Shown: positions 19,790 to 23,930 of the stretch, in pieces | How the letters are laid out: every line of letters starts with the position of its first letter | Position numbering within the stretch: position 1 is the first letter of the stretch | DNA from: Candidatus Moraniibacteriota bacterium | GTDB lineage: Bacteria; Patescibacteriota; Minisyncoccia; CAIUEV01 | Assembly: GCA_016867255.1 (NCBI GenBank) | Contig: VGKB01000003.1 | Span: forward strand, 1 to 34,611 | Direction of reading: 5' to 3' | Length of the DNA stretch: 34,611 nt | Translations under genes and position numbers: made by a program | Notes under the pieces: generated by a model | The model's input: only the letters and a program-made list of their open reading frames with translations | The model's database searches: none | Told to the model about the DNA's origin: nothing

Positions 19790-22147
19790 GTGGGTAGAAG
19801 AAAAAAGAAAAAAGAAATTGACTCAGAGTTGAAAGAGGGAGAATTAAATATATCCAGTACGGCAGAGCGGTGGCTTATAGGGGTATTGGCTTGGGGGATA
19901 GCGTGTATTGTTGTTCTGAGTCTTTTTAACGAAGCCGGAATTGTGGGAAAATATTTAGGGAAAGGAATGGTTGAAATTTTCGGCTGGGGAAAGTATTTGA
20001 TTCCATTTATTCTTATGGTAAGCGGCTACTGGATTATCCGGCAGGAAAGATTAGCCCATCCCTATTATCGGGTAAACGGGCTCTTTTTAACTTTTATTTG
20101 TGCGCTGGCAATTTCATCTTTGGTTAGTAACGGGCTGGAAGGAAAGGTAAACTTGCCTGTCATGAAATCGGCCGGCGGTTACGTGGGGTTGGCGTTGGGG
20201 TATGCGGCAAGTTACTTGGGTTTTTGGGGCGGTTTGATAATTTTAATCACCCTATTTTTTGTAGGGATAATATTGTTGCTTGACGGATACTTCAGGAAAG
20301 TTGAATCAGCGGAAAAAGAACAGATTTCAGCAAAGACCGAATTTGCTGAATCAGAAATAATTGAAAAGGAAGGAGAAGAGGCGAAGGAATTTTTGGCTCA
20401 GGGTTTTGTTTTAGAAAAAGACAATTGGAAAAACTCTCTCCTCCACACCCTGAGAAAAGTAAAAAACAAACTTATAAAAAACAAGAGAAATGGGGCATTG
20501 CAAGATCTAGAGGCCTTTGGGGATAAAAAGAACCAAACTAATGAAGCTTCTTTTTCAGGGACGCCTTCAGAATCTGGGAAAAATAAAAAAGGGAGCCAAC
20601 ATTTGAAAGTAAAGATAATTCCGGGATTGAATGAGAATTGGAAATTTCCTTCACTTGACATTTTGGAGAAAAATACTACCAAGGCGGTTGCGGAAGACAT
20701 CAAAACCAATTCAGCCGCGATTAAAAAGACATTGTTAAATTTTGGAATACCGGCGGAAGTGGCGGAAGTGAATGTGGGTCCAACGGTTACCCAATACGCT
20801 ATTAAGCCGGCAGAAGGGATAAAATTGAGCCGAATAACTGCAATCCAGAGCAATTTGGCTATGTCCTTGGCGGCTCATCCTATAAGGATTGAAGCCCCTA
20901 TCCCCGGTCGCTCTCTGGTGGGAGTTGAAGTGCCCAATAAAGTCAAAAGGGTCGTGAATCTCTGCGAATTGATAGAAGACCCGGCTTTTAAAGAATCGCC
21001 GGAAAAACTATTAATCTCTCTCGGAGAGGACCCGGCGGGAAATTATGTTTACGCCGATCTTTCTGAAATGCCCCATTTGCTTATTGCCGGCGCTACGGGT
21101 TCGGGGAAAAGCATTGACATTAATTGTCTAATTGCCAGCTTGCTCTACCGCAACACACCCAGAGAGATGAAAATGATCATGGTAGATCCTAAAAGAGTGG
21201 AGCTTTCAATTTTTAATAATATTCCGCATTTGCTAACCCCGGTTATTGTGGATCACCACAAAGTTGCCAATGCTCTCAAATGGGCAGTGTCAGAGATGGA
21301 GAGGAGATACATAGTTATTCAGGAAACAATGTCGCGCAATATTGTATCATATAACCAGAAAGTGGTGGACGGGGAAATTGAGCCGGAGGTGGTTAAAGAA
21401 ACCGGCGAAATAATTGAACCGGAATTTATGCCCTACATTGTAATAATAATTGACGAGTTGGCTGATTTAATGTCTTCTCCCTATGCCAAAGAGGTGGAAG
21501 CCCTTATTGTGCGGCTGGCGCAGATGTCACGGGCAGTGGGAATTCACTTGGTGCTTTCTACCCAGCGCCCTTCGGTAAATGTCATCACCGGCATAATCAA
21601 GGCAAATTTTCCCACGCGGATTGCGTTTCAGGTGGTCTCTCAAGTGGATTCCCGCACTATTCTGGATATGTCTGGCGCGGAGAAATTGTTGGGAAGAGGC
21701 GACATGCTCTATTTGCCGAAAGAGTCTAATCAACCCAGGCGCATTCAAGGGACTTATATTTCCGAGAAGGAAGTGCAAAAGATCGTGGACCATTTAATTG
21801 AACAGGAGGTAGCGAGCTACAATCCTACTGTGATTCAGTCCGTTGGACCGGAAATTGAAGGGAAGATGAGTAATCAGGGGGAGGAAGATGAATTATATAA
21901 TCAAGCGCGGGAAATTGTTTTGAGAGACAATAGGGCTTCAACTTCGTTGCTGCAAAGACATTTACGGATTGGTTACTCCCGGGCGGCAAGAATAATGGAT
22001 TTATTAGAAGAAAATGGGGTTATCGGCCCGGCGGAAGGATCGCGCCCGAGGCAAGTGATAAAAGGCAGTGGAAATGAGGAAAGCAAAGAAATTAATTATG
22101 AAAATCCGGCGCAAGATCAAGAGAAAAGAGATAACTGGACGCAATAA
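19790..22147 (+). CDS. ftsK: DNA translocase FtsK/SpoIIIE
   Basis: GTG start; N-terminal TMs; LLIAGATGSGKSIDINCLIASLLYRN (Walker A); PYIVIIIDELADLM (Walker B); C-terminal gamma wHTH STSLLQRHLRIGYSRAARIMDLLEENGVIGP. Confidence 0.96.
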   Translation: MGRRKKKKEIDSELKEGELNISSTAERWLIGVLAWGIACIVVLSLFNEAGIVGKYLGKGMVEIFGWGKYLIPFILMVSGYWIIRQERLAHPYYRVNGLFLTFICALAISSLVSNGLEGKVNLPVMKSAGGYVGLALGYAASYLGFWGGLIILITLFFVGIILLLDGYFRKVESAEKEQISAKTEFAESEIIEKEGEEAKEFLAQGFVLEKDNWKNSLLHTLRKVKNKLIKNKRNGALQDLEAFGDKKNQTNEASFSGTPSESGKNKKGSQHLKVKIIPGLNENWKFPSLDILEKNTTKAVAEDIKTNSAAIKKTLLNFGIPAEVAEVNVGPTVTQYAIKPAEGIKLSRITAIQSNLAMSLAAHPIRIEAPIPGRSLVGVEVPNKVKRVVNLCELIEDPAFKESPEKLLISLGEDPAGNYVYADLSEMPHLLIAGATGSGKSIDINCLIASLLYRNTPREMKMIMVDPKRVELSIFNNIPHLLTPVIVDHHKVANALKWAVSEMERRYIVIQETMSRNIVSYNQKVVDGEIEPEVVKETGEIIEPEFMPYIVIIIDELADLMSSPYAKEVEALIVRLAQMSRAVGIHLVLSTQRPSVNVITGIIKANFPTRIAFQVVSQVDSRTILDMSGAEKLLGRGDMLYLPKESNQPRRIQGTYISEKEVQKIVDHLIEQEVASYNPTVIQSVGPEIEGKMSNQGEEDELYNQAREIVLRDNRASTSLLQRHLRIGYSRAARIMDLLEENGVIGPAEGSRPRQVIKGSGNEESKEINYENPAQDQEKRDNWTQ

Positions 22148-22171
22148 AATAGAAAAAAGTTACACATTGTG

Positions 22172-22312
22172 ATGGTTATAAAACTCCCCATTTTAATTTT
22201 TTTGTGGGACGCCCGCCTGCGCCGAGGCTTCGGCGGGCAGGTCGCCTGAGAGGCATTAACTGCAATGCGAGCTAGATACAAAAAAATTAAAAAAGTTGAG
22301 TTTTATAACCAT
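22172..22312. repeat. MITE-like element: ~34-35-nt terminal inverted repeats around a GC-rich hairpin core
   Basis: Left arm 22172-22205 atggttataaaactc-ccca-ttttaatttttttgt; reverse complement of right arm 22278-22312 atggttataaaactc-aactt-ttttaatttttttgt. Core hairpin cctgcgccga-ggct-tcggcgggcagg (22216-22241). Confidence 0.85.
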
Positions 22313-22385
22313 TTTTCTCTATACCTGAGCTAAATTTCATAAAAATTTTATCTGGATTTAATAATCGTTGTGGTATGGTGGGTGC

Positions 22386-23930
22386 ATGAAACATACCAGT
22401 CGAGTTAAATCATGCGCCGTGGTCGGTTTAGACACCGTTATTGTGGATGTAGAAACTGACTTTTTCCCAGGAATCCACAAATTTAATATTGTGGGATTGC
22501 CGGATGCCGCCATTAAAGAGTCCCAACAAAGGGTTGGATCTGCCCTGAAAAATAGCGGCGCCGTTCCTCCGTATCGGCTGGGGGTGGTAATTGTTAATTT
22601 GGCTCCGGCCGATTTACGCAAGGTGGGAGCGGTTTACGATCTTCCGATAGCAATTGGGATATTGTCGGCCAGCAGCCAAATCCGTTCCAACTCTTCCTAT
22701 TTAAAGGACAGTCTTTTTGTGGGCGAACTGGCCTTAAATGGAGATCTAAGAGGAGTAAAAGGGGTGTTGCCGATTGCCTTGTCTGCAAAAAATGCCGGCT
22801 ATAAAAACTTATTTATCCCTGAAGCCAATGCCAGCGAAACATCGGTCGTTAAAGGACTGAGAGTGTATCCCGTGAAAAATCTAGAGCAGTTGATGCTATT
22901 CTTTGAAGAGGAAAAAAACATTACTCCCTTTAAAGTCTTCCGGGAAATTAGCATTAAGCCAAAATATCTTTTTGATATGAGAGAGATTTGCGGCCAGGAA
23001 CACGTTAAACGGGCTATGGAAATTGTGGCAGCTGGGGGACATAATGTTTGTCTTATTGGACCGCCGGGCTCGGGCAAGACCTTAATTGCGAGAACTTTTC
23101 CTAGCATCCTTCCTGAAATGGGGTTGGAAGAATGTCTGGAGACTACCAAAATATTCAGCGTCGCGGGTAAATTAGATGACAGTAATCCGCTGGTAAGAGA
23201 ACGGCCTTTCCGGGCGCCTCATCACACCTCTTCTAATATTGCTTTGATTGGGGGCGGGACTAACCCTCATCCCGGCGAAATAAGTCTTTCTCATCGGGGC
23301 GTGCTATTCTTGGATGAATTTTTGGAGTTTCCGGCCAAGACTTTGGATTGTTTGAGACAACCTTTGGAGGACGGAATTATTACCATTTCCCGGGCGGCGG
23401 GCTCAGTTACCTTTCCAGCCCGTTTTATTCTTATTGCCGCTATGAATCCTTGTCCTTGCGGCTACGCTACTGACACGGAAAAGGAGTGTACTTGCAACGC
23501 TAACGCCATTAGCCGGTATCAAAGGAAATTGTCCGGTCCGATTTGTGACCGAATTGATATTTTTGTGGACGTTCCCCGAGTCAAGTATGACAAGCTAACC
23601 GGAGAAGGAGGGAGAGAATCGTCCGAAGAAATTCGTGAAAGGGTGCAAAAAGCCAGAGACATTCAAAGTTTGCGCTTTAAGGAAAACGCGATATTTTCTA
23701 ATGCGGAGATGAACAATCAGTACATAAAAAAATATTGCCAATACGGTCAGGAGACAAAGGATATCCTTATTGAAGCTATCAGGAAATTTCATCTTTCCGC
23801 CCGGAGCTACTTTCGGACGCTTAAAATCGCCCGTACCATCGCAGATCTTGAGAATTCTGGCCAAATTGAAACGCGGCATGTGGCGGAAGCGCTCCAGTAC
23901 CGTTTTCAGGGCGAATCATTAATTTCTTAA
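22386..23930 (+). CDS. comM: YifB/ComM family Mg-chelatase-like AAA+ ATPase
   Basis: VDVETDFFPGIHKFNIVGLPDAAIKESQQRV; LIGPPGSGKTLIARTFPSILP; RPFRAPHHTSSNIALIGGG; HRGVLFLDEFLEF; MNPCPCGY. ATG at 22386 preferred over TTG at 22368. Confidence 0.95.
   Translation: MKHTSRVKSCAVVGLDTVIVDVETDFFPGIHKFNIVGLPDAAIKESQQRVGSALKNSGAVPPYRLGVVIVNLAPADLRKVGAVYDLPIAIGILSASSQIRSNSSYLKDSLFVGELALNGDLRGVKGVLPIALSAKNAGYKNLFIPEANASETSVVKGLRVYPVKNLEQLMLFFEEEKNITPFKVFREISIKPKYLFDMREICGQEHVKRAMEIVAAGGHNVCLIGPPGSGKTLIARTFPSILPEMGLEECLETTKIFSVAGKLDDSNPLVRERPFRAPHHTSSNIALIGGGTNPHPGEISLSHRGVLFLDEFLEFPAKTLDCLRQPLEDGIITISRAAGSVTFPARFILIAAMNPCPCGYATDTEKECTCNANAISRYQRKLSGPICDRIDIFVDVPRVKYDKLTGEGGRESSEEIRERVQKARDIQSLRFKENAIFSNAEMNNQYIKKYCQYGQETKDILIEAIRKFHLSARSYFRTLKIARTIADLENSGQIETRHVAEALQYRFQGESLIS

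Follow-up and report, generated by a model that had tools for sequence, protein, structure and literature searches.

A probable lineage-specific MITE with a nested palindromic core between ftsK and comM in a Patescibacteria genome

The intergenic palindrome that separates ftsK from comM in the window (the whole stretch of 34,611 nucleotides analysed here) is a MITE for which no partner is known; the family is new, the class itself is known. Taken as a whole, the evidence is best explained by a lineage-specific MITE with a nested core and with arms subject to template switching, a reading to which we assign a probability of roughly 85%. The element belongs to a known class; what is unusual is how clearly nested palindrome capture and arm correction can be read from its copies, a neat case rather than a revolutionary one.

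The anatomy of the element agrees with the first-pass annotation of this DNA, which had placed it between ftsK and comM, all on the same strand. As described there, two arms (22172–22205, 34 nt, and 22278–22312, 35 nt) pair over 15 + 15 nt on either side of a mismatched block of 4 nt (CCCA) versus 5 nt (AAGTT), and the GC-rich hairpin lies at 22211–22241 with the sequence as quoted. The arms, which match each other with E = 1.6e-5 in the own-genome search, are A/T-rich; the inner hairpin is GC-rich. Folding of the element yielded -58.1 kcal/mol (z = -6.5 against 200 dinucleotide shuffles). We conclude that the true element extends 3 nt further per side than 22172–22312, that is, over 22169–22315, because the 3-bp target duplications of sister copies fit only with three additional nucleotides on each side. 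These outer trinucleotides read GTG...TTT in the window copy and CTG/CCG...CTA in most copies. The features of the locus are as follows.

22169..22315, no strand assigned: full extent of the element with both outer trinucleotides counted in, delimited by the 3-bp target duplications of sister copies and the nhmmer hit limits
22172..22205, + strand: left arm, whose outer 15 nt ATGGTTATAAAACTC form the terminal inverted repeat
22206..22211, + strand: spacer GGGACG to the left of the core, almost unvarying across all copies in the copy alignment
22212..22241, + strand: nested 30-bp palindrome CCCGCCTGCGCCGAGGCTTCGGCGGGCAGG, missing from eight short copies and found without arms in other genomes of the phylum
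22242..22268, + strand: second part of the long core, TCGCCTGAGAGGCATTAACTGCAATGC, which replaces the TCGCTTCGCCGCAGACGGC of short copies
22269..22277, + strand: spacer GAGCTAGAT to the right of the core, almost unvarying across all copies in the copy alignment
22278..22312, - strand: right arm, its outer 15 nt reverse-complementary to those of the left arm
19790..22147, + strand: ftsK, the upstream neighbour, ending 21 bp before the element
22386..23930, + strand: comM (Mg chelatase-like), the downstream neighbour, with its ATG at 22386, 70 bp after the element

Searches of the bacterium's own genome (869,887 bp in 105 contigs, ~95% complete; 869,239 bp rebuilt for the profile search) returned further copies at 95–98% identity and others alike in the arms only. 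The profile search recovered 18 dispersed two-armed copies with unrelated flanks, which fall into four classes by core version: seven copies measure ~141 bp, two ~161 bp, eight ~102 bp and one 112 bp. A single-copy RNA or terminator is ruled out by this number. The copies span 101–161 bp and contain neither a transposase nor any other convincing gene. An arm-only profile added roughly a dozen single ends, the best at E 6e-12 (the reversed genome gave 4 hits, all with E > 1), and two ends-only miniatures lie at C13:8724-8762 and near C17:12060-12095, the latter flanked by ATT left and right on inspection of the sequence. Copies are located at gene boundaries: by our reading, nearly every copy has a gene 3' end on one side or both, and a single copy is clearly placed between divergent genes. 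Where copies fall 'inside' open reading frames, those frames are short and mechanical, except at C13:9800-9908, where the copy lies at the end of a 229-aa mechanical frame. A lone left arm of 38 bp was also observed at C7:16693-16730, 34 bp upstream of recA.

When the three extra nucleotides per side (CTG or CCG / CTA) are counted as element, 12 of the 18 copies are flanked by an exact 3-bp target-site duplication. Random re-pairing of left and right flanks produced a mean of 2.8 duplications and reached 12 in 0 of 20,000 trials, and no other 3-bp offset comes near this value. The duplicated bases are A/T-rich, the first being mostly A, and the wider target is A/T-rich as well. The first-pass annotation had proposed looking for target-site duplications and for empty sites in relatives. 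The former were found for the family and not for the window copy, one of the six without an exact duplication (ATT versus TCT), whose insertion we infer from its sister copies. The latter yielded no base-level empty site: ftsK–comM synteny gave none, since the arrangement differs in the relatives G001 and G002, where the two genes are close but convergent. The non-autonomous mobile element proposed at the outset is well founded, as an element of less than 500 bp without protein-coding capacity, with terminal inverted repeats (15 identical outer nucleotides in arms of 34/35 nt), a duplication of fixed length in two thirds of the copies and several dispersed copies in the one genome (18 plus solo ends). 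In the mechanism that we propose, a transposase encoded elsewhere (none was found in the assembly) would recognise both ends, (CTG/TAG)ATGGTTACAAAACTC, and move the element into A/T-rich gene boundaries, where a 3-bp staggered cut would give rise to the 3-bp direct repeats.

The suggestion that one palindrome had been inserted in another was borne out by eight copies without the GC-rich core and by the presence of the core on its own elsewhere in the class and phylum. The eight short copies carry TCGCTTCGCCGCAGACGGC or a variant differing by 1–2 bases, and the long copies carry CCCGCCTGCGCCGAGGCTTCGGCGGGCAGG followed by TCGCCTG(A/C)GAGGCATTAACTGCAATGC; taking the 30-bp palindrome out of the latter leaves GGGACG-TCGC, the same as in short copies. 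The search for the core alone in relatives, also proposed in the annotation, detected the palindrome without arms in 13 of 54 related genomes, with mostly unrelated flanks. Allowing ≤3 mismatches, it was present in 24 of 379 other sampled genomes of the phylum (backwards control, 0). Because it occurs without arms in relatives and across the phylum, the core is, as judged from this distribution, an independent repeat; because core-less copies exist and the core is widely distributed, it probably entered the MITE and not the reverse. The founding form would accordingly have been a ~102-bp near-perfect palindrome, into whose loop a 30-bp GC-rich palindromic repeat circulating in the phylum landed, and the composite would then have multiplied as a unit. 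Copies C1a and C1b contain a third palindrome, TCTGCCTGCCGGCAGGCAGG, in the loop of the 30-bp palindrome, where it may have landed in its turn. Copy C22 has the long core less a segment delimited by an 8-bp direct repeat, CGCCTGCG.

Comparison of the arms revealed that changes tend to occur on both sides. Across the outer 18 pairs we counted 13 two-sided cells versus 1.9 with right arms reshuffled (13 reached in 0 of 5,000 trials), and relative to the family majority the outer 15 nt show 9 two-sided and 8 one-sided changes where independence predicts ~0.2 two-sided, with the proviso that these shuffles ignore the relatedness of copies, so that shared changes (such as G at position 7 in C20, C18 and C4) are counted repeatedly and private ones are not. 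The window copy has its own private arm pair, GGTTAT/ATAACC, and C20 carries a paired change in the inner stem too. The interior has no fixed orientation with respect to the ends: the GGGACG side bears CTG (or CCG) in 7 copies and TAG in 8, the motif being absent in 3, so that the core faces the CTG/CTA ends at random; alternatively, either trinucleotide could be allowed at either end. In the literature, template switching at short inverted repeats is recognised by arm homogenisation together with spacer inversion (PMC8604942, PMC8794818), and switching between the inverted arms would fit both observations. Between moves, replication through the foldback would let one arm template the other, making mutations two-sided and allowing the interior to flip. 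Both features are common to template-switch corrected quasipalindromes (PMC8604942, PMC8794818) and the present family, which differs in displaying them across 18 dispersed copies of a mobile element in one genome.

Gene conversion between copies, or several master copies, could generate two-sided changes without any switching within a copy, and copies of different core types do have arm variants in common (C27/C13b, C33/C1b and C13a/C15). Yet several two-sided changes are private to a single copy (C3, C20, C13c), and the right arm of C27 has shifted toward its own left arm while that of C13b, which has the same left arm, has not. We therefore regard conversion or multiple masters as a doubtful replacement for template switching, to which inter-copy conversion probably adds. 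The same arm changes bear on the structured-RNA and terminator readings of the first-pass annotation. Since template switching fits the arm covariation, the latter is not evidence for an RNA, and compensatory changes in a hairpin that occurs in many copies do not by themselves imply selection for an RNA. A family of structured RNAs or bidirectional terminators at 3' gene ends, with covariation kept by selection on pairing, would also account for the strong fold and for the position of nearly all copies, but the target-site duplications and dispersed near-identical copies require movement, the sequence and length of the core change between copies, and the family is absent from all sampled relatives. 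Moreover, no Rho-independent terminator (a G+C-rich stem followed by a T run) was found in 22100–22420, and Rfam returned no model match up to E = 1. With the covariation explained by arm homogenisation, these readings are not needed and we give selection on pairing very little credence, although a terminator or structured-RNA role could be a side effect of the MITE. An integron attC site seems unlikely as well: the conserved GTT/AAC motifs face the wrong way, and attC insertion is not known to leave a 3-bp duplication.

Candidate partners were sought in five transposase families (DDE_Tnp_1, DDE_Tnp_1_2, rve, Y1 and IS1595). Neither DDE_Tnp_1 nor DDE_Tnp_1_2 gave a match in the bacterium's own ~95% complete draft genome. 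The rve search led to a complete-looking IS3-family element with two reading frames at C8:16810-18173 (L159), whose ends, TGTACCC, do not match those of the MITE; beside it lie reading frames resembling pieces of a broken tyrosine recombinase. A single IS1595-family transposase gene at C34:600-1330 (L209) has ends around GTCTAGAACA, again without a match, and the only Y1 transposase, a 139-aa protein of IS200-like appearance encoded on C19, is unlinked to the element and has unlike ends. Across the five families, no autonomous partner with MITE ends was thus found in the ~95% complete draft assembly. The partner may have been lost, may lie in the missing 5% of the assembly or may belong to another family. 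A known autonomous partner is a supporting and not a defining feature of a MITE, and many accepted MITEs lack one.

An autonomous insertion sequence with these ends could also be present but split or missing in the draft, the copies being its recent deletion derivatives. The assembly is incomplete and fragmented into 105 contigs, and contigs often break at repeats. Against this, among all end-like sequences with ≤2 mismatches, all of which were listed, no convergent pair flanks a transposase, and an arm occurs at one contig end only, that of C72, where two coding sequences, one of them dnaB-like, end on either side of it; we consider such a hidden element unlikely. Equally speculative is an undescribed transposon type, defined by a 3-bp duplication and an asymmetric CTG/TAG on otherwise identical ends, in which palindromic passengers would serve as landing pads for more palindromes and the stacked hairpins would be kept perfect by template switching.

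Among the genomes, phages and plasmids sampled, the arms do not occur beyond chance, and the MITE family appears confined to this lineage. Across 383 further genomes of the class, the arms gave nothing more than short A/T-run or core matches, with E 9e-5 at best and none extending to the element end, and in eight genomes of the same family or order matches were at or below the backwards-pattern control overall. A search of genome contigs provided one match, from a Chromatiaceae MAG, where no partner end accompanies it; the ends were not found in phage and plasmid records, and the nine pattern matches in IMG/VR, all but one, had no partner end of any kind. The remaining viral contig contains one exact AGATGGTTACAAAACTC (L191:4068) and two weak partial matches on the opposite strand, with 3–4 mismatches, 250–640 bp downstream.

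Bacterial MITEs such as ERIC, Chunjie and QMITE2 (PMC10969869) are likewise short, non-coding, intergenic and A/T-rich, with terminal inverted repeats, target duplications, a stable transcript fold, and truncated and solo-end copies. In contrast to these, to which no sequence relation was detected, the present family has a 3-bp duplication, outer trinucleotides that are asymmetric (CTG/CTA) and a nested phylum-wide palindrome, and has no identified partner IS. The pneumococcal BOX, RUP and SPRITE clusters (described in PMC10969869) also consist of small elements inserted in one another, whereas in the present family the composite spread as one unit and the palindrome that it acquired is shared across the phylum. 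Among the open-access papers searched we found none describing MITEs in Patescibacteria. A single genome holding the palindrome 18 times offers a natural experiment in arm-to-arm correction and stepwise nesting.

The captured core, in turn, brings to light a small palindromic repeat that many genomes of the phylum share. Its 30 bp fall within the 20–40 bp size range of GTAG- or CGTC-tagged REP sequences (PMC3733652), from which it differs in its low copy number per genome and in that no constant GTAG or CGTC tag stands beside it in relatives; GACG precedes the core in the MITE only. As for the RAYT transposases with which such REPs are associated, the own-genome search gave one Y1 transposase, the IS200-like protein encoded unlinked on C19. 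In two genomes of different families (L029 and L031), closely similar sequence flanks the 30-bp palindrome (gattttttctt ... taaaaggaaaagaaaactttttt), which may mark an orthologous terminator site. In the bacterium's own genome, a predicted YbeY-like protein on contig C9 (L025:2452-2958) includes an odd stretch, LACLASSPCQSFRRSTGRQA, that resembles a palindromic repeat read in frame.
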